This document shows, piece by piece, positions 5,938 through 54,470 of a stretch of 64,000 bases of DNA. A program made the translations under genes and the position numbers. The DNA is from Pseudomonadota bacterium (GTDB lineage Bacteria; Pseudomonadota; Gammaproteobacteria; Pseudomonadales; Moraxellaceae): positions 62,001 to 126,000 of the forward strand of contig JAJZBU010000001.1 in assembly GCA_021851865.1 (NCBI GenBank). Direction: 5' to 3'. Within the stretch, counting starts at the first letter, position 1. Every line of letters begins with the position of its first letter. The notes beneath the pieces are model-generated. The model had not been told where the DNA came from and ran no database searches. It worked only from the letters and a program-made list of their open reading frames with translations.

Positions 5938-6556
5938 GTCGTATCAATCCGACGTAGACGCCCTCGATCATCAACTTCTCACCAGTGATGAGCATGGGTT
6001 GATAGGCGGCGTTGGCGGGCAGGAGCTTGGCCATGCCATTCTCATAATCGAGATATTTGACGGTGACTTCCTCGTCGATGCGGGCGACGACGATCTGACC
6101 TTTGCGGGCGATGGACGTCTTGTAGACGGCGATCAGGTCGCCGTCGAGAATGCCGGCGTCTTTCATGGAGTCGCCGCGCACGCGCAGCAGAAAAGTGGGT
6201 GATGTGGCGAAAAGTCCTTTCGGTAGCGGAATTTTTTCGTCATGCTGTTCGATCGCCTCGATCGGCAAACCGGCAGCCACCTGTCCGATCAGGGGGACCC
6301 ACTCGATGTCATCTTCGGCGAGGAGGGGCGCAGGCTCGTCGGCGACCGGCAACAACTGGATGCCGCGTGAACGGTCGGGATGTAGGTGGATATAGCCTTT
6401 TTGTGCTAGGGCATGCAGGTGGTCGACCGCTGCCGTGCGCGAACGAAAGCCGAAACGCAGAGCGATCTCGGCGCGCGTCGGCGGCATGCCGTGCTGCTGC
6501 AGGTTTTCACGGATGAAAGCGAGAATTTCCGCCTGGCGCAGGGTGAGCTTGTGCAT
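5918..6556 (-). CDS. lexA: LexA, SOS repressor
   Basis: Transcriptional repressor of the SOS regulon, inactivated by RecA-stimulated self-cleavage. It has 212 residues. The N-terminal winged-helix domain reads LTLRQAEILAFI and PPTRAEIALRFGFRSRTAA. The cleavage bond is Ala95-Gly96 in GQVAAGLP. The Ser130/Lys167 dyad lies in RGDSMKDAG and EVTVKYL. A perfect LexA operator and a second imperfect one lie 33-76 nt upstream, so it is autoregulated. The overlapping downstream flavoprotein gene shares its transcript. Confidence 0.97.
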   Translation of the reverse strand: MHKLTLRQAEILAFIRENLQQHGMPPTRAEIALRFGFRSRTAAVDHLHALAQKGYIHLHPDRSRGIQLLPVADEPAPLLAEDDIEWVPLIGQVAAGLPIEAIEQHDEKIPLPKGLFATSPTFLLRVRGDSMKDAGILDGDLIAVYKTSIARKGQIVVARIDEEVTVKYLDYENGMAKLLPANAAYQPMLITGEKLMIEGVYVGLIRHAPFSI

Positions 6557-6588
6557 GGAAGGAGCTCCGGTGAGGAAGAAGATGCCAC

Positions 6589-6604
6589 CTGTCTTTGTAG
6601 ACAG
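6589..6604. promoter_or_regulatory. LexA operator (SOS box), perfect consensus
   Basis: CTGTCTTTGTAGACAG matches CTGT-N8-ACAG exactly. It lies 33 nt upstream of the lexA start and overlaps the -10 of the lexA promoter. Confidence 0.93.
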
Positions 6605-6631
6605 TGTAGGCGTGAACTAGCATCATGTACA
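6603..6631 (-). promoter_or_regulatory. lexA sigma-70 promoter
   Basis: On the minus strand, TGTACA (6626-6631) and TACACT (6603-6608) are separated by exactly 17 bp. Both elements are covered by the LexA operators, which explains repression. Confidence 0.7.
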
Positions 6632-6632
6632 G
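6617..6632. promoter_or_regulatory. Second, imperfect LexA operator
   Basis: CTAGCATCATGTACAG keeps one perfect half-site (ACAG) and two of four bases in the other. It is centred 28 bp from the perfect box and overlaps the -35. Paired operators at lexA are known in E. coli and Pseudomonas. Confidence 0.55.
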
Positions 6633-6780
6633 TATTTTGCGTGCAGTAGGAATGAGGGAGGTGGGGCTTGGTCGGTAAAAGCGGCGTGTGTTCACAGAGG
6701 CAGGGCAGGGGAATCTGCCTACTGGTGAGTCGTGGCGATTTGAACTACCTTATTCGTGCGGTTACCGAGGAATGCAAGAC

Positions 6781-7461
6781 ATGATCGACTATCACTTTAC
6801 TTTCGACGATGGCCTGGAGTTGACTTATCGTGTCGATCCGGAGCGTCAGTACGATCCTAGGCTCGATGTGGAGCAAGCCCCTGAGTGGACTCGCCTCGAG
6901 AACAATCGTTGCACCAACTGTCCGCTCAATGCGCAGGAACATTCACATTGTCCGGCGGCGGTCGATCTCGATCGCGTCGCGCGTGATTTTCAACACCTGC
7001 CCTCGTTCACCAAGACCTGGGTCAAGGTGACGACGCCGGAACGCGAATACGTCAAGCGTGCTAGCCTCGAAGAAGGCGTGCGCGCCTTGATGGGCTTGAT
7101 CATGGCGACCTGCGCTTGCCCGATATTTTCTGAGCTGAAGGCGAATGCCCATAATCATCTGCCTTTCGCCTCGCAAGAGGAGTTCATCATCCGTGCTGCC
7201 TCGATCTATCTGCTCAAGCAGTACTTCATCATGCGGGAAGGAGGCGAGCCGGACTGGGATTTACGCGGACTGGTGCGCATGAATGAGCGCCTGCAACTGG
7301 TCAACCATGCCTTCTGGCAGAGGGTGATCGCGGCCTTTCAAAATGACTCCAACTCCAAAGCTTTGCTCAGTTTTTTCAATATGGCGTCGAGCATGACCAG
7401 TTCCATGGACGCGCAGATGGCACGGATCCGCCCGATTTTTTATCAGGGTGGTGGCGATTGA
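6781..7461 (+). CDS. Conserved protein of unknown function, DUF6901-like
   Basis: Soluble protein of 226 residues with no signal peptide or membrane segment. Near residues 40-60 there is a Cys/His cluster (NNRCTNCPLNAQEHSHCPAAVD) that could bind metal. It is followed by a mostly helical C-terminus with a CACPIFSELKANAHNHLPF segment. I think it belongs to the DUF6901 family, from memory of similar sequences. The ATG at 6781 is preferred because GAGGAA ends 8 nt before it; an ATG at 6772 is too close. The stop overlaps the TTG start of the next gene by 3 nt. Its place between lexA and topA recalls the Pseudomonas gene order. Function unknown. Confidence 0.72.
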   Translation: MIDYHFTFDDGLELTYRVDPERQYDPRLDVEQAPEWTRLENNRCTNCPLNAQEHSHCPAAVDLDRVARDFQHLPSFTKTWVKVTTPEREYVKRASLEEGVRALMGLIMATCACPIFSELKANAHNHLPFASQEEFIIRAASIYLLKQYFIMREGGEPDWDLRGLVRMNERLQLVNHAFWQRVIAAFQNDSNSKALLSFFNMASSMTSSMDAQMARIRPIFYQGGGD

Positions 7462-7904
7462 AGGCAGGCGTCATCGTCGCGTTGCTGGCGGGAGGCTATG
7501 TGCTCGGGCAGTGGCTGCTCCTCCGGCCGCGGCCGGAGGAGCAGCGCCGCATGCGCCTGCGTGCGCAGGCACATCACCAGGGCTGGCAGGTGCGCTTGTG
7601 CAAGCCACCCTCTTGGTGGTCGGGTGCGCCGCCCCTGGTGCCTCGTTATACTTGGCACTGCCCTTCACAGGATGGAGCGGGGCGGTGTTTTTTGTGGCAT
7701 GAAGTCGATGGTTGGCGAGCTTTGCCCAACGGTCCCGTGCCCGTCGCTCTGCAGTCTTGTACGGTGCCGGGATTGACCGCCGTCGAGTGCGAGGCGCAGG
7801 CTTGGCACTTCTATTGGGATGAGCGATCCGATCTTGCCGGCATGACACTTTTATGCACCTTGGCCGATGAACTAACAGCACAACCTATTGACCGTTCGGC
7901 CTAA
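7458..7904 (+). CDS. Small membrane-anchored protein of unknown function
   Basis: 148 residues starting at a TTG that overlaps the TGA of the preceding gene, so translation is probably coupled. The N-terminal ~22 residues form one hydrophobic helix (VIVALLAGGYVLGQWLLL) followed by basic residues, suggesting a membrane anchor. The rest is a Trp- and Cys-rich domain (four Cys, WHCPSQDG, WHFYWDE). I do not recognise the family. The topA -35 element begins inside its 3' end. It is likely part of a two-gene unit with the DUF6901-like gene. Confidence 0.6.
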   Translation: MKAGVIVALLAGGYVLGQWLLLRPRPEEQRRMRLRAQAHHQGWQVRLCKPPSWWSGAPPLVPRYTWHCPSQDGAGRCFLWHEVDGWRALPNGPVPVALQSCTVPGLTAVECEAQAWHFYWDERSDLAGMTLLCTLADELTAQPIDRSA

Positions 7905-7916
7905 GCTGCTTATATA
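7888..7916 (+). promoter_or_regulatory. topA promoter
   Basis: TTGACC (7888-7893) and TATATA (7911-7916) are separated by 17 bp. A GC-rich discriminator (TGCGCC) follows. The start point would be about 35 nt upstream of the topA ATG. Confidence 0.65.
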
Positions 7917-7959
7917 TGCGCCCTGATCGCTGTCCCGCCTGACTGGAAGCACACAATTT

Positions 7960-10560
7960 ATGGCAAAGTCCCTCGTCATCGTCGAGTCCCCGGCCAAAGC
8001 CAAGACCATCAACAAGTATCTGGGTTCCCAGTTCATTGTGCGTTCGAGCGTCGGTCACGTGCGTGATCTCCCAGTCAGTGGGCAGGGTGAAAAATCACCC
8101 GCACGCAAGGCTGCGACGCCTGGGTTGTCTCCCGAGCTGAAGGCTTGGCGAGCTCTGGTGGCGCGCATGGGTGTCGATCCTGAGGATCACTGGAAGGCCA
8201 ACTATCAAGTTCTGCCGGGAAAGGAAAAGGTGGTAGATGAACTGCGTCGTCTGGCGCAGGAAGCGGACACCATCTATCTGGCGACTGACTTGGATCGCGA
8301 AGGAGAGGCCATCGCTTGGCATCTGCGCGAAGTGATCGGTGGCGACGCGGCGCGTTATCAACGGGTGGTCTTCAATGAGATCACCAAAAACGCCATCAGT
8401 GAGGCTTTTAACCATCCCGGGCGGCTCAACCAGGACCGTGTCGATGCGCAGCAGGCGCGGCGTTTTCTCGATCGCGTCGTCGGTTATATGGTTTCGCCCT
8501 TGTTGTGGGAGAAGCTGGCGCGTGGTTTATCGGCGGGGCGGGTGCAGTCGGTGGCGGTGCGTTTGATCGTCGAACGCGAGCGTGAAATCGGTGCTTTCGT
8601 CCCCGAGGAGTACTGGGAACTGCACGCTGATACCCAGGGAAACCGGGGTGAAGATCTGCGTCTGCAGGTGGTGCGTGACGGCAAACAAGCCTTTCGTCCC
8701 ACCGATCGCGGGCAGATTGATCTCGCTCTCGAACAGTTACGTACCGCCGCCTATCAGGTTGTGCAGCGCGAGGACAAGCCGACGCGTACGCGTCCGGCGG
8801 CGCCTTTCATCACCTCGACGCTGCAGCAGGCGGCCAGCACCCGCCTCGGGTTTTCGGTCAAGAAGACGATGACCCTGGCGCAGCGACTGTATGAGGCCGG
8901 GCATATCACGTATATGCGTACGGACTCGACCAATCTCAGTGCCGAGGCGGTCGACGCCTGTCGGCAGTACATTCTCGAGCATATGGGCGCCGCCTATTTG
9001 CCCGAAAAAGCGTTGAGCTATGCCGCCGGCGACAATGCACAAGAGGCGCACGAGGCGATTCGCCCCTCCGATGTCGCCGCCGAACCCAGCCAGGTGGCCG
9101 GCCTTGAGCGTGACGCTGAGCGCCTGTATGAGTTGATCTGGCGCCAGTTCGTCGCCTGTCAGATGCCGGATGCGCAGTACCTCACCAGCACCTTGACCGT
9201 GCAGGCCGATCGCTTTGAGCTGAAGGCGCGCGGTCGCATCCTCAAGTTTGACGGTTATACGCGTATCCTGCCGCCGGCGCAGCGCGACAAGGAGGAGGTG
9301 ATCCTGCCCGATATCGCCGCGGGCGAGAGTTTGCGTTTGGTGAAGCTGTTGCCGAGCCAGCATTTCACCAAGCCGACGCCACGCTATACCGAAGCGACCC
9401 TGGTGCGCGAGTTGGAGAAACGCGGCATCGGACGCCCGTCGACCTATGCCGCCATCATCTCGACCATTCAGGAGCGCGGCTACGTCAAAGTCGAGCAGAA
9501 GCGTTTCTATGCTGAGAAGATGGGTGAAATCGTCACCGAGCGCCTGGTCGAGAGCTTTACCAACCTGCTCGACTATGACTTCACCGCGCATCTCGAGGGC
9601 GATCTCGACAAGATCGCCAAGGGCCAGCTGCATTGGGAGCAGGTGCTCGATGCTTTTTACGTCGACTTTCATCAGCGCTTGAAACGCGCCGCCGACGATG
9701 AGGGGATGCGCCGTAATCAGCCGACCGCCACCGACATTCCCTGTCCCTTGTGTGCCCGTCCGATGATGATCCGGACGGCGGCTACCGGCGTTTTCCTCGG
9801 ATGCTCGGGCTATGCCCTGCCGGTCAAAGAGCGCTGCAAGGGGACGATCAATCTGGTGCCGGGCGATGAGGTTCTGGCGATCGATGACAGCGACGAGGAA
9901 GGGGAGACGCGCGAGCTGCGCGCCAAACGGCGCTGCCCGATCTGTCAGTCGGCGATGAATGCCTATCTCATCGATGAGCAGCGTAAGCTACACGTCTGTG
10001 GTCACAATCCCGATTGCAATGGTTATATCGTTGAATCGGGGCACTTCCGCCTCAAGGGCTATGAGGGACCGGTTCTCACTTGCGACAAGTGTGGACAGGA
10101 AATGCAGCTGAAAACCGGGCGCTTTGGCAAGTATTTCGCCTGTACCTCGGCGGCGTGCGGCAACACCCGCAAGCTCTTGCGCAATGGCGAAGCGGCGCCG
10201 CCCAAGTCGGCGCCCATCGCCCTGCCGCATTTGCGCTGTCAGCGAGTGGATGACTACTTCCTGTTGCGCGATGGCGCCGCTGGGCTCTTTCTCGCCGCCA
10301 GCACCTTTCCCAAGCATCGTGAGACGCGCGCGCCGACCATCGCTGAGCTCAAGTCGGTGGCCGATCAGATCGATCCCAAATACGCCTATCTGCTGACGGC
10401 GCCGGAGGTCGATGCGGAAGGGCGCCCCGCTGTGCTCAAGTTTGCGCGCAAGACGCGCGAACAGTATGTCGCCAGCGAGGAACAAGGCAAAGCGACAGGA
10501 TGGCAGGCGCATTACCGCGAAGGTCGTTGGCAGGTCAGCCGCGGCGGGAAGTCGGCATGA
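7960..10560 (+). CDS. topA: DNA topoisomerase I (type IA, omega protein)
   Basis: Relaxes negatively supercoiled DNA. It has 866 residues, the usual length for gammaproteobacterial TopA. The TOPRIM domain starts [15 protein letters not shown] and includes the metal-binding [11 protein letters not shown]. The catalytic tyrosine is Tyr318 in [10 protein letters not shown]. Three C-terminal tetracysteine zinc ribbons begin CPLC (about 595), CPIC (about 660) and CDKC (about 710), followed by a Cys-less C-terminal ribbon. The ATG of the next gene overlaps the TGA. Confidence 0.97.
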
Positions 10561-11060
10561 GCCGGGCACAGCGCCAGGCGTCGATCGGACGCACGAACGA
10601 AAAGCTCTATCACGCCCAGTTGCACCTGGAGGCCTGGGTACAATCGCAGGGTGACGAGGAGCGTTTCAATCCGCGTGCCTGGGCGTTATCCTATAGTGAG
10701 TCGGTCTTGTTTCACTTGGAGCTGGCTTGGGAGTCTTTCCTCGCCGAGATCGCTGAGTTCTATAAAGTGCCGCGCCCACAGGATCTGACAGATCTTGGCA
10801 GGCAGTTACAGGCGGCGGGTATTGTTTCACCCGAGTGGGCGCAGCTTCAGGCGGCGGCTGAGGATGTGACGAGTTTCCTGACGCAATTGTTGACAGCGTA
10901 CGCGCATCTTCGTGTGCCGAGCCCGGAGGCGGCGACCGCCACTGCGGTGGGCCGCGTGGCGGTGGCTGAGCCTGGTCCGGATCGGGAACGGTTGCATGCG
11001 TGGTGGCAGGGGTTGCGGGCGTTGATCGATGCCCAGCGGCGACAGATGCAAGAATGGTAG
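10557..11060 (+). CDS. Conserved hypothetical protein, DUF6586-like
   Basis: Predicted soluble helical protein of 167 residues, function unknown. It begins [20 protein letters not shown] and contains the conserved segment [27 protein letters not shown], here described by its ends only (about residues 45-70). The ATG overlaps the topA stop (ATGA), so it is translated from the topA message. Similar small proteins accompany topA in Pseudomonas-like genomes, but no role has been shown to my knowledge. Confidence 0.75.
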
Positions 11061-11079
11061 GCGCGGGGTTGGGTGCTAT

Positions 11080-11352
11080 ATGTCATTGAAAGATGAGGAA
11101 TCTTCATCTTGGCTCGAGATCGTCGAAGTGGCGCCCGGGCAGATTGAGTTGCGCCGTGAGATGGGCGAGGAGCGGACGGCGGTGGAAGAGCCGCTGCTAC
11201 GCCTGCAGTTTTCTGCCGATGCCCAGTTGATGCTCGGTGAGCATCTGGTGGCGGTGACGCAGGCGATGATCGCCGCGGGTTTGCAGACAGCGGGGGAGTT
11301 GCAGCGGCGTATGTTGAATGGTGAGGGTGGCGAAGCCCGTCTCCTGCATTGA
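11080..11352 (+). CDS. Small hypothetical protein
   Basis: 90 residues beginning MSLKDEESSSWLEIVEVAPG. It is acidic and mostly helical at the C-terminus. A phrase like EPLLRLQFSADAQLML suggests a compact globular fold. The ATG at 11080 is chosen as the first start clear of the upstream gene, although its ribosome binding site is weak. It lies 19 nt after the DUF6586-like gene and is probably in the same transcript. Family not recognised. Confidence 0.55.
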   Translation: MSLKDEESSSWLEIVEVAPGQIELRREMGEERTAVEEPLLRLQFSADAQLMLGEHLVAVTQAMIAAGLQTAGELQRRMLNGEGGEARLLH

Positions 11353-11432
11353 ACGGCGCAAGGCATCGTCGTGTCTCTGCCTGGGTCCCCGCCTGCTAGA
11401 CTGAGGGGATCGAGGTCATCGGGAGATGCGGC

Positions 11433-12086
11433 ATGTTCGACAAGAAAATGCCTGAGGCATGGCGGGTTTTGCGGATTCAATCGGAACTCGTCGATGGTAT
11501 CGAGCACCTGACCAAAATTGGTGCTGCTGTCAACATCTTCGGCAGTGCCCGTCTCACCGCCGACAACCCCTATTATCAGCAAGCCGAACGATTGGCGCGT
11601 TTATTGGCGCAAGCTGGCATACCGGTGATCACCGGCGGTGGCCCCGGCATCATGGAAGCTGGCAACAAAGGGGCGCAGGGTCACGGTCGTCTGTCCATTG
11701 GATTGAATATCACCCTGCCGGCGGAACAGTGCCCCAATGCCTACCAGGAGCTCAGTCTGAGCTTTCGCTATTTTTTCGTGCGCAAGTTCATGTTCATCAA
11801 GCACGCCATCGCCTTTGCCATTTTCCCAGGTGGCATGGGCACACTGGATGAACTCTTCGAGGCGGTGACACTGATTCAGACAGAAAAGATCGATCCTTTT
11901 CCAGTGGTGATGGTCGGCCGTTCCTACTGGCAGGGACTGCTGTCTTGGATCGAAGAGACGGTCTTGGCGCAGGGCTGCATCGACGCGGTGGACATGAAGT
12001 TGTTCCAGGTCGTCGACAGCGCCGAAGAGGCGATGCAGATCATCTATCGACACTATCGGGCCTATCAGAGCGAGGAAGAGGCATGA
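11433..12086 (+). CDS. LOG/TIGR00730-family Rossmann-fold protein (putative nucleotide 5'-monophosphate phosphoribohydrolase)
   Basis: 217 residues with the lysine-decarboxylase-like signature of LOG proteins: GGGPGIMEA at 68-76 and PGGMGTLDE at 132-140. Family members such as PpnN and plant LOG cleave the base from nucleoside monophosphates, so nucleotide salvage or cytokinin-like release is the expected chemistry; the older name lysine decarboxylase is misleading. A GGGAGA ribosome binding site precedes the ATG. The stop overlaps the ATG of the L,D-transpeptidase gene. Confidence 0.85.
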   Translation: MFDKKMPEAWRVLRIQSELVDGIEHLTKIGAAVNIFGSARLTADNPYYQQAERLARLLAQAGIPVITGGGPGIMEAGNKGAQGHGRLSIGLNITLPAEQCPNAYQELSLSFRYFFVRKFMFIKHAIAFAIFPGGMGTLDELFEAVTLIQTEKIDPFPVVMVGRSYWQGLLSWIEETVLAQGCIDAVDMKLFQVVDSAEEAMQIIYRHYRAYQSEEEA

Positions 12087-12577
12087 AGGTCGGGGCGAGG
12101 TCTCTCAGGGTTCAGGTAGCCGATCAGACCCTGCATTGGCTGGAGGATGGCGTCACCTATCGCATCAGTCCTTGTTCGACAGCGGCGCGTGGCGTCGGTG
12201 AGCGTCGTGGCAGCGAGCAGACGCCGCGCGGTCGCCACGTGATACGAGCCAGCATCGGTGCAGGCTGCGCCGCCGGGACGGTCTTCGTCGGACGGCGGCC
12301 GACGGGTGAGATATGGACACCACAGCTCGCCGCGCAGTATCCGGAACGGGATTGGATCCTGACGCGCATCCTCTGGTTGAGTGGACTGCAGCCGGGGTTC
12401 AATCGCCTGCATGACGTCGATAGCATGCGTCGCTACATCTATATCCACGCCACCGCGCCGACCGAGCCCATGGGTGTGCCGCGCTCGCACGGCTGTATTC
12501 GTCTGCACGATGGCGAATTACTCGCGCTGTTCGACTGGGTGCGCCCAGGTTGTGAAGTGGAGATCGTCGCGCCTTGA
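12083..12577 (+). CDS. L,D-transpeptidase (YkuD domain), short form
   Basis: YkuD-domain protein of 164 residues. The active site motif is complete: His122 in IYIHAT, then SHGCIR with Cys138 and Arg140. Family members form 3-3 crosslinks or attach Braun lipoprotein to peptidoglycan in the periplasm. No signal peptide or membrane helix is visible at this start (MKVGARSLRV), which is odd for a periplasmic enzyme. Its start is fixed by the 4-nt overlap with the LOG-family gene. It ends just before the -35 of the tRNA operon. Confidence 0.85.
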   Translation: MKVGARSLRVQVADQTLHWLEDGVTYRISPCSTAARGVGERRGSEQTPRGRHVIRASIGAGCAAGTVFVGRRPTGEIWTPQLAAQYPERDWILTRILWLSGLQPGFNRLHDVDSMRRYIYIHATAPTEPMGVPRSHGCIRLHDGELLALFDWVRPGCEVEIVAP

Positions 12578-12585
12578 AAAAAGCG

Positions 12586-12613
12586 TTGACATGTCGGTGG
12601 ATGTCCCTATAAT
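12586..12613 (+). promoter_or_regulatory. tRNA-Val/tRNA-Asp operon promoter
   Basis: Consensus -35 TTGACA (12586-12591) and -10 TATAAT (12608-12613) with 16-bp spacing. The GC-rich discriminator GCGCCCCC after the -10 is typical of stringently controlled stable-RNA promoters. Confidence 0.95.
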
Positions 12614-12631
12614 GCGCCCCCACACGCTGTT

Positions 12632-12707
12632 GGGTGCTTAGCTCAGCTGGGAGAGCATCTCCCTTACAAGGAGAGGGTCGGGGGTTCGATCCCCTCAGCA
12701 CCCACCA
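12632..12707 (+). tRNA. tRNA-Val (TAC anticodon)
   Basis: 76 nt with encoded CCA. The acceptor stem GGGTGCT pairs with AGCACCC. The anticodon TAC is at 12665-12667 in loop CTTACAA, and the T-arm contains GGTTCGATCC. It is transcribed with tRNA-Asp, which starts 10 nt later. Confidence 0.98.
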
Positions 12708-12717
12708 CGACGATCAT

Positions 12718-12794
12718 GCAGCGGTAGTTCAGTCGGTTAGAATACCGGCCTGTCACGCCGGGGGTCGCGGGTTCGAGTCCCGTCCGCTGCGCCA
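12718..12794 (+). tRNA. tRNA-Asp (GTC anticodon)
   Basis: 77 nt with encoded CCA. The acceptor stem GCAGCGG pairs with CCGCTGC. The anticodon GTC is at 12752-12754 and the T-arm contains GGTTCGAGTCC. Confidence 0.98.
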
Positions 12795-12819
12795 TATCAC
12801 CGGAACATCCGGTACATCA

Positions 12820-12848
12820 ATGCGACCCTAACGGGTCGCATTTTTTTT
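12820..12848 (+). terminator. Rho-independent terminator of the tRNA operon
   Basis: The stem ATGCGACCC / GGGTCGCAT with loop TAAC is followed by a run of eight T. It lies 26 nt after tRNA-Asp and only 6 nt before the first possible start of the next gene. Confidence 0.95.
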
Positions 12849-12875
12849 ACCCTGATGATACCGTCTCGTTATACT
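12847..12875 (+). promoter_or_regulatory. Candidate promoter of the PilZ-DUF1631-GGDEF-EAL gene
   Basis: TTACCC (12847-12852) and TATACT (12870-12875) are 17 bp apart. The -10 is good, the -35 poor. If real, transcription starts downstream of the first ATG (12855), so the protein would begin at 12894 or 12942. Confidence 0.35.
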
Positions 12876-15800
12876 GAAAGCATACTCGCAGGGATGGAGC
12901 TGCCGCTTCATCGTTGGGTCGAGCGCTTTGAGGAGATACCGGTGGAGCTGCGCAGAGATCTTCGCGCCAACATCGCCGTGCCGGCGAGTGTCCTGGATGA
13001 AAAGGGAAAGACCTGGTTTGTCCTGATTCGCGATTTCAGTGAGCAGGGAGCTCAGATCGAGTTCGAGCGTGTCGCTACCGATATGCCGCGTTCTGGCGCG
13101 CGGCTGCGGCTGTGCGTCGGCGTGGGCGAAGGTGACGCGCCGGCTTATGAGCTGGAGGTGCAAGTCCAGCATGAACGGCAGGGTCGCCTGGGTGTGCGGT
13201 TTTTGTCGGCGGCGAACCACCTGCTCGAGTTTCTGCGCCGTGAGATTCTCCTGCCGCCGCAGAAGATCTTGCCAGTGTCCCTGCAGAAGGCGCTGGAAGA
13301 CGTACAGAAGCAGGGCATGGACTTTTTCGAGATGGTGCTCCCGCGTCTGCTCGAAGCCATCGTGCAGGCTTTTGAGCAGGCGATGCAGCAGGCCGGTAGT
13401 GACGCCGAGCGCCTGCGCCTGTCCGAGGCTAGGCAGAGCTTCAAGGCGCGACAAGAGGTCGTGGCGCAACGTTTCCATGAATATATCGAGCCGATCATCC
13501 GGCATTTTGCCCGCCCCGGTCAGGCTCAGGGGGTGGAGCATCAGGCGCAGATACGGCAGTTGTCCTTGATCGCCAAGGAAGAGTTCGAAAGCTGGCTGGT
13601 CGTCAAAGTGATGATCACCAAGGTCGAGGGACGCTTTCGTGAAGGGCTGTTCGCCTTGCAGTTGCGCCTCGATCAGATGATGGGGGCTGCGGCCGGTAAG
13701 CAGCTCAACCCCTTCGCCCCGCTGATCGCCTGTGATGCGCTCAAATATGCCTTGGTCGGGCTGACGCTGCCAGTCCAGATCGAGAAGATGATCTACCAAG
13801 TCTTTGCTGAGCAGGTGCTCGATCGACTCGGTCGTCTCTACGATACGCTCAATGTCACCCTGATTCGACATGGGGTGCTGCCCGAGCTCGATCTGGCGCG
13901 GGTGATGGCCGCCAGCAAGGTGCCAGCCCAGGCGGCATCCAAGACTGTTCCCTCCGAGGTGAAGGAGGCCGATGCGCGCATCCCGCTTGCACCGGTGCGG
14001 GCGGATGCGAAGCCGGCCGCCTTGCAGGGATTCTCTGCTTCGCCGGCGCCGGCGCGTACGTCCTATGCCACCGCTTTGCGTATCGCAGAATTGTCGCAGT
14101 GGGTGCAGGAAATGCCGGTGGCGGCGACGTCGGTCGAGCAGCGGCAGGTGGCCTCACGTGAAAACCTTCTCGTCTCCTTGCAGCGGCTGCAGCAGGGCGG
14201 TGGTGATGTCCTGCATATGGTGGAGAGTCTGCAAAAAGATCTGGCGCAGAGCGGCCAGATGCTCAGTCGCCAGGATTTCGCCACTTGTCAGATGGTCGAT
14301 GGCCTGCTCGAGTCGATGACGGCGCACGATTCTCTGGCGCAGGATGTGCAGCCCTGGTTTGAAAGCCTGAAGCTGCCACTGCTCAAGCTGGTTCTGCAAA
14401 ACGAGCGCTTGTTCCAGATCGATGATCATCCGGCGCGCCTGGTGCTCAATCGTCTGGCGCGTCTGGGTATGCGCGGGCAGATCCTGGTGCAGCAGCAGCG
14501 CGAGCAGATCGATGCGCTTTTGGCGCAGCTGGTGGCCAGTTCGCTGACCCAGGATGAGGACTTTGCCGCGGTTCTGCCACAGCTTGACGCGCTGGTGCAG
14601 AGTCAGGACGCTTTGGTCGAACGCAATTTACAGCGTGTCGCCCAGGTCGCTGAGAGTGAGCAGAAACGTGATCTGGCGCGGCGACGGGTGGATGAGGAAA
14701 TCGATACACGTCTCGCCGGTAAACATGTGCCGCGCGTTCTTCTCACCCTGTTGGAGATGGGGTGGCGTGACCTGCTGATCATGACGCATGTACGTTATGG
14801 TGAAGAGCATGAAGAGTGGCGGCAACATTGGTCGGTGATCGATGAGCTGCTCACCCGCGATGTCGATGCGGCCAGTGGTCAGCTCGAATTGCGCGAGCTC
14901 GTGCATCGCATCAAGGAAGGCCTGCATGCCAGTGGTGTCACCGTCTCGGCGGCTGACAAGATACGGATGGGGGCGGATCTCAAGCTCCTGCTTGGGCAAG
15001 GCGGAGACCCCGGAGGAGTGCCGAGGGTGCCTTTCCCGCGCCGACGGACCCGCGCCGACGATGAGGCCGATATGGCGCCGTGGATGGAGCGCTGGCGTCA
15101 ACGCTGTCGCCAGTTGCAGGTCGGTGACTGGATCGAGCTGCAGCGCGCACACGGCGCGACCGAGCGCATGCGCCTGGCCTGGATCGGGCAAAACCACGAG
15201 CGCTTCGTCTTCGTCAATCATCAGGGAATGCGTGTCAGCGACTTTTCGCTCGATGACATGGCGCGCTTGCTGCACGGCGGCGAGCTGATCCTGCTCGACA
15301 TGGCGCCGGCTTCTCCCGTCGATGAAGCGATGGAGAAGATGGTGCAAAATATGTATGACCAACTGGCTTGGGCGGGCATGCATGATGAATTGACCGGCCT
15401 GATCAACCGGCGCGAGTTCGAACGGCAAGTAGAGCAGGCTCTGGCCTACTCGCGCCGCACCCGTGTCAAACATGTCCTGGCGCAGTTGGATCTGAATCAG
15501 TTTGGCCTGGTCAATAAGGACGCCGGATATGAAGCCGGTGATGCGCTGTTGCGCGAACTGGTGGGCCTGCTGGATGGCCTGCCGCACGCCAACAAGAAGC
15601 TGGCGCGTCTCGCCGGTGACGTCTTCGGTATTCTCCTTGTGGACATCGATCAGGCGCAGGCGCAGACGCAGTTGACCGATCTGATGCAGACGATCGCTGA
15701 CTATCGTTTCACTTATACCGACAAGATTTTCCATCTGGGCTGTTGTGTCGGTGCTGTGGTGGTGGCGCATACCGATGAATCGGCCGATATGCTCCTGCGT

Positions 15801-16652
15801 GGCGCCGAGTCGGCGTGTTCGATCGCCAAGGAAACGCCAGGCGGGCAGCGCATGCAGTGGTGGCTACCGAACGATCAGGAGCAGGCCCGGCGCCAGGAGG
15901 TGATGTCTTGGGTGTCGCGTCTCAATCAGGCGCTCGATGAGCATCGCCTGGAACTGCGTTGTCAGAAAATCTCGCCTCTGTCGGAGGCGGCACAACACGC
16001 AGGAGCGCACTATGAGGTGCTGCTGGCGATGCAGGGTGATGATGGACGCATGATCTCGCCAGGGGAGTTCATGCAAGCCGCCGAACGTTACAACCGCATG
16101 CATGCCGTCGATCGTTGGGTGATCGAAAATGTTTTGCAGTGGATGGTTGAACATAAAGAGAAGGTCGCGGATCTCGGCGGCTTTTCGATCAATCTGTCCG
16201 GTCACTCGTTCAATGACGAGGGCTTGCTGGAGTTCATCTTCGAGAGGTTCACGGCTTATGACGTGCCGCGAGAGAAGATCGTCTTCGAGGTCACCGAGAC
16301 GACGGCGATCGCCAATCTCGTCGATGCTGCTGATTTTATCCGTGAGATGAAACGCATCGGCTGTCGGTTTGCTCTCGACGACTTTGGCGCTGGCATGTCC
16401 TCCTATACCTATCTCAAGAACCTGCCGGTCGACTTCGTCAAAATCGATGGCAGCTTCGTCAAGCATCTCGACGAGGACAAGCAGGACTTGGCCATGGTCA
16501 AGTCCATCCATGAGATGAGTCATATGCTCGGTAAGCAGACGATCGCCGAATATGTTGAAAACGATCTCATTCTGGCCAAGCTGGCCGAGATAGGCATCGA
16601 CTTCGTCCAGGGCTATGGCATCGAGAAGCCACGATTGCTGTCGTCTTTGTGA
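12855..16652 (+). CDS. PilZ-DUF1631-GGDEF-EAL protein, putative c-di-GMP sensor/phosphodiesterase
   Basis: 1265 residues as drawn. A PilZ-like domain at about 30-130 keeps both c-di-GMP motifs (RRDLR and IRDFSEQG). A long helical DUF1631 region spans about 130-740, followed by a linker. The GGDEF domain starts around HDELTGLINRREF (844), but its active-site motif is AGDVF (920-924) rather than GGDEF, so it is probably not a cyclase. The EAL domain has EVL at 1054-1056, NLS, FEVTET, DDFGAG at 1175-1180 and VKID, so phosphodiesterase activity is plausible. Start uncertain: 12855 has no ribosome binding site and abuts the tRNA terminator. GTG at 12942 has GAGGAG 7 nt upstream and would begin right at the PilZ motif. 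Confidence 0.88.
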   Translation: MIPSRYTESILAGMELPLHRWVERFEEIPVELRRDLRANIAVPASVLDEKGKTWFVLIRDFSEQGAQIEFERVATDMPRSGARLRLCVGVGEGDAPAYELEVQVQHERQGRLGVRFLSAANHLLEFLRREILLPPQKILPVSLQKALEDVQKQGMDFFEMVLPRLLEAIVQAFEQAMQQAGSDAERLRLSEARQSFKARQEVVAQRFHEYIEPIIRHFARPGQAQGVEHQAQIRQLSLIAKEEFESWLVVKVMITKVEGRFREGLFALQLRLDQMMGAAAGKQLNPFAPLIACDALKYALVGLTLPVQIEKMIYQVFAEQVLDRLGRLYDTLNVTLIRHGVLPELDLARVMAASKVPAQAASKTVPSEVKEADARIPLAPVRADAKPAALQGFSASPAPARTSYATALRIAELSQWVQEMPVAATSVEQRQVASRENLLVSLQRLQQGGGDVLHMVESLQKDLAQSGQMLSRQDFATCQMVDGLLESMTAHDSLAQDVQPWFESLKLPLLKLVLQNERLFQIDDHPARLVLNRLARLGMRGQILVQQQREQIDALLAQLVASSLTQDEDFAAVLPQLDALVQSQDALVERNLQRVAQVAESEQKRDLARRRVDEEIDTRLAGKHVPRVLLTLLEMGWRDLLIMTHVRYGEEHEEWRQHWSVIDELLTRDVDAASGQLELRELVHRIKEGLHASGVTVSAADKIRMGADLKLLLGQGGDPGGVPRVPFPRRRTRADDEADMAPWMERWRQRCRQLQVGDWIELQRAHGATERMRLAWIGQNHERFVFVNHQGMRVSDFSLDDMARLLHGGELILLDMAPASPVDEAMEKMVQNMYDQLAWAGMHDELTGLINRREFERQVEQALAYSRRTRVKHVLAQLDLNQFGLVNKDAGYEAGDALLRELVGLLDGLPHANKKLARLAGDVFGILLVDIDQAQAQTQLTDLMQTIADYRFTYTDKIFHLGCCVGAVVVAHTDESADMLLRGAESACSIAKETPGGQRMQWWLPNDQEQARRQEVMSWVSRLNQALDEHRLELRCQKISPLSEAAQHAGAHYEVLLAMQGDDGRMISPGEFMQAAERYNRMHAVDRWVIENVLQWMVEHKEKVADLGGFSINLSGHSFNDEGLLEFIFERFTAYDVPREKIVFEVTETTAIANLVDAADFIREMKRIGCRFALDDFGAGMSSYTYLKNLPVDFVKIDGSFVKHLDEDKQDLAMVKSIHEMSHMLGKQTIAEYVENDLILAKLAEIGIDFVQGYGIEKPRLLSSL

Positions 16653-17199: not shown

Positions 17200-17671
17200 T
17201 GGCCCCGGAAATTTGAACAAGCGGATAAGTGGAACGCCTGCTACTTTTGATGCCCATGCAGGGCGTAGAAATGGAGCGGGAAATGGCGAAGAGGACGAGA
17301 AGGACGCATTCGGCGGTATTCAAGGCCAAAGTGGCTATGGCGGCGCTATCGGGTGACAAGACGCTGGCGCAACGTGAAGTACGAGGATGTGTCCCTGAAA
17401 GGGTACGCCAACATGGCGGAATTGACGGTGGGCTTGGCGCAGTATTTCGCGTTCTACAACGCGGAGCGCCCGCACCAGGCACTGGGCTATCAAACGCCCA
17501 GCCACGTCTACAGCACCGGGGTTGGCGGTGGTGCGGTGATCGTCGACCGGTTTGGCGACGATGAAGAGAAGCCGCAGGAAAAGAGTCATACGGGGCAGCG
17601 CCGGGCAGCTGACAAGGTGGAGGTTGGCACAGCTTAAATTCACCGGCAAAGTGTCTTGACTGACGGGTCCA
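17200..17671 (+). mobile_element. Internally deleted IS3-family element (~470 bp)
   Basis: The start of OrfA (MAKRTRRTHSAVFKAKVA, ATG at 17283) is joined after about 30 codons to the C-terminal part of OrfB in another frame (NVKYEDVSLKGYANMAELT, then AERPHQALGYQTPSHVY, stop at 17637). The helix-turn-helix end and the DDE core are missing, so it cannot transpose by itself. The ends TGGCCCCG (17200) and, inverted, TGGACCCG (ending 17671) are an 8-bp terminal repeat with one mismatch. I found no target duplication. The right end has cut the mntA-like gene. Confidence 0.72.
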
Positions 17672-17673
17672 CT

Positions 17674-17841
17674 TTAGTCGGTGATGATGGCCAGATCAAG
17701 GTCTGAATATTGTTTGGCGGTCCATTTGGCTCGTGAGCCAAAGGCCCAGACCTCATACTGGGGTACATACTTTTGCAAGATGCCTTGCACGATGTCCCAA
17801 TGATCTTCACGGATGTCGATGAGCGATGCTGTTTTTGTCAT
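17674..17841 (-). pseudogene. Truncated MNT-type nucleotidyltransferase (MntA-like antitoxin)
   Basis: 55 codons remain of a protein normally about 100-115 residues long. The nucleotidyltransferase signature is present: GSRAKW at 35-40 and SDLDLAII at 46-53 (GS...DxD). The reading frame then runs into the IS3 end and stops two codons later, so the third catalytic Asp and the C-terminal half are lost. Its ATG overlaps the stop of the HEPN gene. In HEPN/MNT modules this protein neutralises the toxin, in several cases by AMPylating or otherwise nucleotidylating it. Confidence 0.8.
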
Positions 17842-18251
17842 CGCAGGCGGCCATTCAGTTGATCACGCAAATAACGTGCTTCATTTAAAAAGTCAGGTAT
17901 GGTGGACACGACTTCGAGCGCAACCTTTTCATCGTAGGTATGACTGGTTTTCGAGCGCATGTCGCGATAGCGTTTCCAGTGGGACCATTCACCCAGCAAA
18001 AGCCCTTGTTCGTTGCCCGAGCGAATCAAGTCCTGAAATGCCATGCTGTCGTATTGCGCTGGCGTAGCGGATACAAACTCCAGGTAGCGTTTCAAGGTCT
18101 TGTGGCTGAGTTCATAGGTGAACTCAAAGCGCTGAATCAAGCCATCACGTATTAGCGTATTGGCCTGATCCATTTGATAGACAGAGATGCCTTCTTCCAG
18201 GCGAGCAATGGCTTTATCAAAATTCTGGATATTGAGTTTCTCGTTGCTCAT
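17838..18251 (-). CDS. HEPN-domain protein, HI0074/TIGR01987 type (HepT-like toxin)
   Basis: Complete protein of 137 residues. It has the all-helical HEPN fold signature of nucleotidyltransferase-associated proteins and the ribonuclease-type motif RSKTSH (R99-x4-H104) followed by TYDE. HI0074-type proteins were first described as nucleotidyltransferase substrate-binding subunits; HepT relatives act as RNA-targeting toxins. It is followed, with an ATGA overlap, by the truncated mntA-like gene. The combination of an intact putative toxin and a broken partner suggests the toxin is weak, silent or neutralised elsewhere. Confidence 0.82.
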   Translation of the reverse strand: MSNEKLNIQNFDKAIARLEEGISVYQMDQANTLIRDGLIQRFEFTYELSHKTLKRYLEFVSATPAQYDSMAFQDLIRSGNEQGLLLGEWSHWKRYRDMRSKTSHTYDEKVALEVVSTIPDFLNEARYLRDQLNGRLR

Positions 18252-18287: not shown

Positions 18288-18348
18288 GGCGTTTTTCAAG
18301 GTAGTTGTCGCTTTTCTGTGTTTCCTATGCGGCCTGTGGAACGGCCAT
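18288..18348. repeat. Left arm of a 61-bp inverted repeat
   Basis: It matches the reverse complement of 18645-18705 at 57 of 61 positions. It contains the last codons and stop of the adjacent transposase remnant, so it is the tail of an IS. Confidence 0.9.
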
Positions 18349-18630
18349 ATCCTCTCTTTCCGGATTCAGCATGACAGCACTCACCGGAGTCCAGTTGCGG
18401 GTCTCCCCTGACCAACGTTCTGGTCGTGCCGCCTTCGCAGATTCATAGACCGCGTGACGCTGCGCCAAGATACCATGGTCCTTGCCCTGATGCCGTTGGG
18501 CCGGTGTGACGAAGCGGATGCGGCTATGACGGTGCTCCTCGTTGTACCAGCGTACAAAGGCGCAGATCCATTGCCGTGCGGCTTCCAGGGTGGCAAAACC
18601 CTTGGCCGGCCACAGTAGACAATACTTCAA
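18325..18630 (-). pseudogene. IS3-type (rve integrase) transposase C-terminal remnant
   Basis: The minus-strand frame contains KGFATLEAARQWICAFVRWY and HRHSRIRFVTPAQRH, the C-terminal end of the integrase core with its WYN...HSRI signature in IS3-family OrfB proteins. Only about 100 codons survive; the first two catalytic acidic residues are absent. It is enclosed by the 61-bp inverted repeat, whose left arm encodes its last residues (MAVPQAA). Confidence 0.75.
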
Positions 18631-52338: not shown

Positions 52339-52382
52339 AGGGAGGCTGCAACGACAAAACTCTGTCAGGTGCAGCTTTGAAC

Positions 52383-54470
52383 ATGAGCAAGATCCTTCAA
52401 CTCCTGATGCGCAGCGGACTCGGTGTTCCCGTCTTCCTGCTGGTCATCCTCGGTATGATGATCCTGCCGCTGCCGCCTTTTCTGCTCGATGTCCTGTTTT
52501 CTTTCAACATCAGTCTGTCCCTGGTCATCATCCTCGCCTCCATCTATGCGCAAAGGCCGCTCGACTTCGCTATTTTTCCGACGGTGTTGCTGGTCGCGAC
52601 CTTGATGCGGCTAGCCCTCAACATCGCCTCGACGCGTGTCGTTCTCCTGCATGGCCATCAAGGTAGCGATGCCGCCGGCAAGGTGATCGAGGCTTTCGGT
52701 CACGTCGTCATCGGTGGCAACTATGCGGTCGGTGTCGTCGTTTTCGCCATCTTCATCATCATCAATTTCGTCGTCATCACCAAAGGCGCCGGCCGTGTTT
52801 CGGAGGTGAGCGCGCGGTTTACCCTGGATGCCATGCCGGGCAAGCAGATGGCCATCGATGCGGATCTCAATGCCGGCATCATCAATCAGGAAGAGGCCAA
52901 GACGCGGCGCTCGGAAGTCGCCCAGGAAGCTGATTTCTACGGTGCCATGGACGGCGCTTCGAAGTTTGTGCGCGGCGATGCCGTCGCCGGCATTCTCATC
53001 CTGCTGATCAATCTCATCGGCGGTATTCTCATCGGCATGCTGCAGCACTCGCTCAGTTTTTCCGATGCTTTGTCGTCGTACGCCTTGCTCACCATCGGTG
53101 ATGGCATCGTCGCGCAGATTCCGGCTTTGCTCTTGTCGACGGCCTCCGCCATCTTGGTGACACGGGTCTCATCAGCACAGAGCATGAGTGAGCAACTATT
53201 CACACAGTTGTTCGCGACGCCGCAACCTCTGTTCGTGGCTGCCGGAATTTTGACGGTCATGGGGCTGGTGCCCGGCATGCCGCACTTTTCTTTTCTGCTT
53301 CTAGCGAGCTTGGCGGCGGCGATGGGCTACAGCCTGTATCAGCGTCAGCAGAGTCTGGCGGCGGCAGCGGTCACCGAGACCGTGCCGGTGGCGGCGGCGC
53401 AGCCGGCCGAGCAACGGGAGATCGGTTGGGACGATGTGCAGCCGGTCGACAGCCTTGGTTTGGAAGTGGGCTATCGTCTCATTCCTCTGGTCGATAAGAC
53501 GCAAGGCGGTGCTTTGCTCAGCCGGATCAAGGGGGTGCGTAAAAAGCTGTCACAGGACCTTGGGTTTTTGCTGCCGTCGGTACACATTCGTGACAACCTC
53601 GAACTGGCACCGACGCACTATCGTTTGACCCTGATGGGGGTGACCATAGGGCAGGCCGAGGCTTATGCCGATCGCGAATTGGCGATCAACCCGGGACAGG
53701 TCTTCGGCAGCTTGCGCGGTGTCGCCTGCAAGGATCCAGCGTATGGTCTCGACGCCGTCTGGATCGAAGCGACGCAGCGCGATCAGGCGCAGAGCCTCGG
53801 CTATACCGTCGTCGATGCGGCGACGGTCATCGCCACGCATCTCAACAGCGTCATGCAAAAGCACGCCTGGGAGTTGATCGGTCATGAAGAGGTGCAGCAG
53901 TTGGTGGAACAACTGCGCAAGACGCACCCGAAGCTGGTCGAGAGCCTGATTCCGCAACCCTTGTCCTTGTCGGTACTGCTCAAGGTTTTGCAAAACCTTC
54001 TGCGTGAAAAAGTCGCCATCCGCGATATGCGCAGCATCTGTGAGTCGCTGTCGGACGCCATCACGCGCACCCAGGACGTCGATGCCCTGACCGCGCATGT
54101 ACGGGTCGGCTTGGCGCGGATGATCGTGCAGTCGGTGGCCGGCGATCAGGAAGAGATTCCGGTCATCACGCTCGAGCCGGAACTGGAGCAGATCTTGCTG
54201 CAGTCGGTGCAACAGGCGCGCCACGCTGGTGGTGGTGACAGTGACGCCATGCTTGAGCCCGGTCTGGCAGAAAGACTACGTCATCATCTGAGTGAGGCGA
54301 CGCAGCGTATGGAGATGGCGGGCAAGGAGTCGGTCCTCCTGGTCTCGATCGGGGTCAGGGCCATGCTGGCGAGATTCGCCCGCTACAGCCTGCCGACGCT
54401 GACGGTGCTGGCCTACAACGAGATTCCGGAAAACCGCAAGATCACCATCTTTGCGACGGCTGGGCGATAG
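52383..54470 (+). CDS. flhA: Flagellar export gate protein FlhA
   Basis: Export gate subunit and cargo/chaperone docking platform. It has 695 residues: about eight transmembrane helices in the first half, with the FHIPEP family signature region NFVVITKGAGRVSEVSARFT and TLDAMPGKQMAIDADLNAG, then a large cytoplasmic domain. The ATG at 52383 (MSKILQLLMRSG) is preferred over a TTG two codons upstream. It starts a second transcription unit with its own sigma-54 promoter. Confidence 0.96.
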   Translation: MSKILQLLMRSGLGVPVFLLVILGMMILPLPPFLLDVLFSFNISLSLVIILASIYAQRPLDFAIFPTVLLVATLMRLALNIASTRVVLLHGHQGSDAAGKVIEAFGHVVIGGNYAVGVVVFAIFIIINFVVITKGAGRVSEVSARFTLDAMPGKQMAIDADLNAGIINQEEAKTRRSEVAQEADFYGAMDGASKFVRGDAVAGILILLINLIGGILIGMLQHSLSFSDALSSYALLTIGDGIVAQIPALLLSTASAILVTRVSSAQSMSEQLFTQLFATPQPLFVAAGILTVMGLVPGMPHFSFLLLASLAAAMGYSLYQRQQSLAAAAVTETVPVAAAQPAEQREIGWDDVQPVDSLGLEVGYRLIPLVDKTQGGALLSRIKGVRKKLSQDLGFLLPSVHIRDNLELAPTHYRLTLMGVTIGQAEAYADRELAINPGQVFGSLRGVACKDPAYGLDAVWIEATQRDQAQSLGYTVVDAATVIATHLNSVMQKHAWELIGHEEVQQLVEQLRKTHPKLVESLIPQPLSLSVLLKVLQNLLREKVAIRDMRSICESLSDAITRTQDVDALTAHVRVGLARMIVQSVAGDQEEIPVITLEPELEQILLQSVQQARHAGGGDSDAMLEPGLAERLRHHLSEATQRMEMAGKESVLLVSIGVRAMLARFARYSLPTLTVLAYNEIPENRKITIFATAGR

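Follow-up and report, generated by a model that had tools for sequence, protein, structure and literature searches.

What a domain of unknown function does when it lies between a likely sensor of the second messenger bis-(3′-5′)-cyclic dimeric GMP (c-di-GMP) and an enzyme domain of the type that degrades it is the question raised by a gene in a 64,000-nt stretch of DNA (hereafter, the window) from a Pseudomonadota bacterium of the family Moraxellaceae (assembly GCA_021851865.1, contig JAJZBU010000001.1, positions 62,001–126,000). Its reading frame (12855–16652, plus strand) is a single open one of 1265 codons, uninterrupted by stops, and encodes PilZ, DUF1631, GGDEF and EAL domains in one protein. 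An earlier note, made from the sequence alone, suggested that DUF1631 transmits a c-di-GMP signal to a phosphodiesterase. We give about an even chance to a version of this idea, in which the protein would be a c-di-GMP-responsive phosphodiesterase: PilZ would sense c-di-GMP, DUF1631 would couple the binding of PilZ or of a partner to EAL, and GGDEF would be a dead connector, the whole providing local negative feedback, perhaps in pilus-based surface behaviour. Our literature search found no functional study of DUF1631; the term appeared a single time in each of three papers and in no title or abstract, PF07793 appeared in none, and a search on the domain architecture returned nothing beyond two of those three papers. 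Because the long forms join DUF1631 to a c-di-GMP sensor and an EAL domain, its role becomes testable domain by domain.

The four-domain composition was confirmed by Pfam, which, when run on the open reading frame (residues are numbered throughout from the ATG at 12855), placed PilZ at residues 32–129 (12948–13241; E 1.5e-7), DUF1631 at 141–833 (13275–15353; E 6e-101), GGDEF at 842–995 (15378–15839; E 3e-23) and EAL at 1022–1259 (15918–16631; E 5e-57), all on the plus strand and above cut-off. The DUF1631 match reaches 339.5 bits against a PF07793 cut-off of 33.7 and spans positions 4–741 of the 741 in the profile. The same domain order is found in three close relatives, L067, L065 and L066 (81, 66 and 50% identity, respectively). 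Broken down by domain, EAL (91/85/76%) and a small barrel at the C-terminal end of DUF1631 (91/81/72%) show the greatest identity to these relatives, and PilZ (82/60/31%) a low one.

The motifs of c-di-GMP-receptor PilZ domains are RxxxR and [DN]xSxxG, and the window protein carries them as RRDLR (33–37) and DFSEQG (60–65). RxxxR and DFSxxG are kept in the window protein and all three relatives despite the drift of the domain to 31% identity. The top Foldseek rows for the PilZ model were PilZ domains (probability 1.00), several of them c-di-GMP-bound structures, and the model resembles the PilZ domain of BcsA (VIA; Z 13.1, root-mean-square deviation (rmsd) 2.2 Å over 92 aligned residues). Judging by the kept motifs and the predicted true PilZ fold, the domain appears c-di-GMP-competent, as the earlier note had supposed.

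That note was likewise right about the cyclase half. In place of the diguanylate cyclase signature GG[DE]EF, the window protein has AGDVF (residues 920–924, 15612–15626), and the change from E to V at position 4 is shared by L065, L066 and L067. The EAL motif itself reads EVL, and the metal-binding and catalytic residues, whose roles are described for ProE (PMC7290235), are complete (8/8: E1054, N1113, E1145, D1175, D1176, K1196, E1232 and Q1252), as they are in each of the three relatives. The claim that the EAL residues are mostly kept is thus right, but the substrate-binding Arg, four residues past the first EAL Glu (R332 in ProE; PMC7290235), is Ala1058 here.

Three characterized proteins help to place the GGDEF–EAL part. 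ProE (PA5295), termed a degenerated diguanylate cyclase and described as a very active phosphodiesterase (PMC7290235), resembles the window protein in its dead GGDEF; its EAL is live, it has no signal-sensing domain according to the same source, and it keeps R332 where the window protein has Ala. FimX, among the best solved matches, shares the tandem GGDEF–EAL order and a degenerate GGDEF and is described as working around type IV pili (PMC12533971), but its EAL has lost the N and DD that the window protein keeps as N1113, D1175 and D1176, so that this FimX-type sign of a non-catalytic EAL is absent here. The best solved match of residues 835–1259 (E 1.6e-107) is RbdA of Pseudomonas aeruginosa (PA0861, PDB 5xgb), which has the same domain order and EAL catalytic set but retains GGDEF, the I-site REGD and the Arg after the EAL motif, their counterparts in the window protein being AGDVF, HANK and Ala. 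No PilZ or DUF1631 match was found in the RbdA chain, which carries PAS. RbdA is described as behaving mainly as a phosphodiesterase, with EAL activity linked to GTP (PMC10874727).

Structure prediction, which the earlier note had proposed for residues 130–740, was run with AlphaFold2 on residues 25–845 (14 sequences; mean predicted local distance difference test score (pLDDT) 74.8, predicted template modelling score 0.45, at which the arrangement of the domains is unreliable). DUF1631 is predicted to form two helical halves separated by a low-confidence linker (~352–429) and flanked by the PilZ barrel and a small C-terminal barrel, from which a long helix (residues 821–844, 15315–15386, plus strand) enters GGDEF. 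Since the barrel leads by this helix into GGDEF–EAL, DUF1631 would lie between sensor and enzyme. The helical halves had no solved match among the rows listed, which PilZ filled, and a known fold is therefore possible. Modelled alone, the C-terminal barrel (~residues 745–816, 15087–15302, plus strand; pLDDT 82) resembles Tudor/SH3-like barrels such as the SMN Tudor domain and Spindlin, and matches TraI over 67 residues (Z 8.6, rmsd 2.4); in these models the likeness is one of shape and not of kinship, as no Foldseek match passes E 0.001. Tudor/SH3-like barrels are typical binding modules. The barrels of the long proteins and of standalone DUF1631 proteins are the same module (hhalign, 99.8%). 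A second, hidden PilZ domain in this barrel was considered and rejected, as hhalign against the family's own PilZ profile gave a probability of 0.3–0.5%, and the structure matches listed contained Tudor/SH3-like barrels and no PilZ entry.

The architecture is not unique to the window and belongs to a widespread family. DUF1631 was present in 93 of 274 genomes of the class and in none of 14 control genomes. We compared 32 long proteins, namely those of 26 other genomes, chosen by eye for long frames among the matches listed, and those of the window, L065, L066, L067 and L077; L076, L079 and L080 (partial or split) were left out, as was L075, taken as the same record as L053/G213. The PilZ motif is complete in 29/32 long proteins (allowing C for S and Q for D/N), and a profile of their PilZ domains matches 31/32 of them and none of 40 standalone DUF1631 proteins (the test set of 43 included three long proteins, L057–L059, outside these 40). 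The EAL core is intact (8/8) in 19 of the 32, the window lineage included, and all 13 proteins in which it is eroded or broken retain the PilZ match (one being cut by a contig end and one lacking the first Arg). What stays constant in the long forms is thus PilZ together with DUF1631, and EAL is an output kept or lost by branch. As an observation on the whole family, 17 of the 19 otherwise intact EAL domains have other, mostly small residues in place of the substrate Arg. A helical segment at ~610–720 (PF07793 positions ~480–640) is kept by the window lineage, by one protein of L034 (L034_5968) and by standalone DUF1631 proteins, and is absent from five other long proteins of the same alignment. 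L034 carries two long genes in tandem (5968–9726 and 9870–13877), one product having an intact EAL (8/8) and GGDEF, and the other an eroded EAL (5/8), DKDKF and a lost first PilZ Arg; by its sequence, this pair looks like a duplication followed by division of labour.

The standalone proteins (NCBIfam 'PacR family', NF058594) share DUF1631 and its C-terminal barrel with the window protein but, unlike it, lack PilZ, GGDEF and EAL; the eight that were scanned contained no other Pfam domain. Against the NF058594 cut-off of 1200 bits, the window protein scores 90.8 bits and seven standalone proteins 184–316. We found no description of PacR function in the literature, where the PacR papers found concerned other things. 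The window genome itself also encodes a standalone DUF1631 protein of 917 amino acids (aa), adjoining nadC. Of 13 loci examined, six have nadC close to the standalone gene (L060:7064–7900 on the minus strand, L069, L071, L072, L073 and L089), the identity of nadC being Pfam-confirmed in the four that were scanned.

The loss of EAL has a genomic correlate. In 10 of the 32 long loci (L038, L040, L041, L043, L045, L053, L055, L056, L057 and L077), the long gene is followed, without a change of strand, by one for a Ser/Thr kinase with a C-terminal cyclic nucleotide monophosphate (cNMP)-binding domain (for example, L043:9735–11018 and L055:4239–5537; Pfam was applied to four of these loci). In nine, this kinase gene lies within about 120 bases of the long DUF1631 gene or overlaps it. 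EAL is eroded or broken in nine of the ten kinase-linked proteins, the exception, L038, having an 8/8 EAL but ASDIF for GGDEF. Among the 28 proteins with sufficient room downstream and a scored EAL, eight have a kinase and an eroded EAL, one a kinase and an intact EAL, two an eroded EAL and no kinase, and 17 an intact EAL and no kinase (Fisher 1e-4). L057, which is truncated N-terminally by the end of its contig and whose frame is interrupted before EAL, was left out of this count, as were L058, L059 and L065 (<0.7 kb downstream). Repeated independent erosion with kinase linkage was not supported, as the tree of the long proteins, whose deep forks are weak, needs only one or two changes for kinase linkage and yields one independent pair; the linkage could be one event, and the association appears to be one lineage-level fact. 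At E ≤ 1e-60, 76/274 genomes have kinases of this type, some of the matches covering the kinase part alone, and the kinase family thus extends beyond its pairing with DUF1631. The eroded long proteins and their downstream kinases are candidate c-di-GMP receptor–kinase pairs, which might link c-di-GMP directly to Ser/Thr phosphorylation. With somewhat less assurance than we attach to the reading of the window protein, we regard PilZ–DUF1631 proteins as possible c-di-GMP receptor hubs with two fates, either a built-in feedback EAL phosphodiesterase, as in the window lineage, or decayed GGDEF/EAL pseudo-enzymes paired with a dedicated downstream Ser/Thr kinase–cNMP-binding protein and tied to type IV pilus life.

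For the window protein, the favoured mechanism would begin when PilZ binds c-di-GMP; DUF1631 would relay the resulting change, or the docking of a partner, via its barrel and the long helix, and EAL would then hydrolyse c-di-GMP locally, as a negative-feedback device. GGDEF, lacking the residues for c-di-GMP synthesis, would act as a connector and dimerization element, and the loss of the substrate Arg suggests that the activity of EAL is weak or tuned. The process served is likely to be surface behaviour based on type IV pili, and not swimming, because DUF1631 co-occurs with pilO: this gene is found in 90/93 DUF1631 genomes versus 122/181 others (base rate 212/274), the three DUF1631 genomes without it being assemblies of ~240 to 560 contigs, and in all 27 long carriers. 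For flhA, the figures are 75/93, 75/181 and 21/27.

Several observations weigh against parts of this account. The position of the substrate Arg is Ala in the window protein and Ser in L065, L066 and L067, whereas each of the six remaining EAL domains in the window genome has Arg there; among the 19 long proteins with an intact EAL, only L046 and L049 keep it, and hydrolysis may be weak or absent in the whole long-protein family. EAL is eroded or broken in 13/32 long proteins (with a broken frame in L057). Signalling between the domains is inferred. As to the pilus link, the pilO and flhA counts are uncorrected for phylogeny, and the window itself contains flhA (52377–54470, plus strand; PF00771, 897 bits), the sole match in its genome, which probably encodes flagella in addition to pili.

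These points lend some weight to a rival that we consider possible, if clearly less probable than a c-di-GMP-responsive phosphodiesterase, namely that the protein is a non-catalytic double receptor, whose PilZ and EAL domains both bind c-di-GMP without hydrolysing it, with DUF1631 as an output that binds a partner such as the pilus motor or a kinase. FimX and LapD bind c-di-GMP in this manner, and the presence of FimX among the best solved matches, the Arg missing from 17 of 19 intact proteins, the persistence of PilZ in all 13 eroded ones and the kinase genes adjoining eroded members are what such a receptor would explain. The window lineage, however, keeps all eight metal and catalytic positions down to 50% overall identity, including the N and DD lost by FimX, and its EAL is the best-kept domain or among the best-kept; moreover, no kinase partner lies downstream of the window gene, nor was such a kinase found in the window genome at E ≤ 1e-60. 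It seems improbable that the protein is an ordinary phosphodiesterase, constitutively active, whose PilZ and DUF1631 domains serve localization, for example to the pole, without regulating activity. This reading has a parallel in the polar PdeB, whose GGDEF domain is described as a spatial on-switch acting via HubP (PMC9061725), and would suit the resemblance of the DUF1631 barrel to a binding module, but the PilZ motif is kept while the rest of that domain drifts, which suggests selection for ligand binding.

How far the transmitter idea of the earlier note holds then depends on its scope. In the window protein, it agrees with the position of DUF1631 between a PilZ domain with receptor motifs and fold and an EAL with its catalytic set, reached by a helix running straight into GGDEF–EAL. 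As a general account of DUF1631, it is unlikely, given the absence of PilZ from all 40 standalone proteins and the retention of DUF1631 in the 13 long proteins with an eroded or broken EAL; the substrate Arg of EAL is missing as well. Because standalone forms do without PilZ and eroded long forms keep both DUF1631 and PilZ, DUF1631 is likelier to be a partner-binding or scaffold module, placed under PilZ control in the long forms, with EAL as a sometimes-lost output.

The length of 1265 residues given by the earlier note is that of the maximal open frame, whereas the true start is probably GTG 12942 (residue 30), giving a protein of 1236 aa (12942–16652, plus strand) with PilZ at its extreme N-terminus. 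We place it there because a GAGGAG box (12930–12935) precedes this codon; because the −10 element (12870–12875) of the only promoter-like site, a sigma-70-like TTTACC-18-TATACT (12846–12875, plus strand; 1 found versus 0.1 expected), falls 3′ of ATG 12855; because the L067 DNA just before the counterpart of the GTG is conserved but one base out of frame; and because the L066 reading frame opens at the matching codon. At this position, the codon is GTG in the window, L067 and L066, and TTG in L065. The TTATACT of the promoter-like site is present in L067 too.

The window genome (2.44 Mb, 54 contigs) contains 25 GGDEF, 7 EAL and 5 PilZ matches above cut-off, as well as T2SSE-type ATPases and FlhA. 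Four of its EAL proteins have an intact catalytic set (L083, L084, L085 and the window protein), and in L086, L087 and L088 the set is altered, L086 being a separate FimX-like protein (E 4e-67 to FimX 4j40). Upstream of the gene lie, in order, topA, a DUF6586 gene, a short unknown open reading frame, a LOG-type gene, a YkuD gene and a tRNA-Val/tRNA-Asp unit closed by an intrinsic-terminator-like hairpin directly upstream (12819–12842, plus strand); the topA–DUF6586–LOG–YkuD order is kept in L066. The downstream neighbour is yjdM, on the opposite strand. Further on, an NTase_sub_bind gene (17841–18251, minus strand) sits between a short frame without a Pfam match that, by eye, is a possible transposase remnant (17229–17561, plus strand) and a fragment with an integrase-core match (18328–18630, minus strand).

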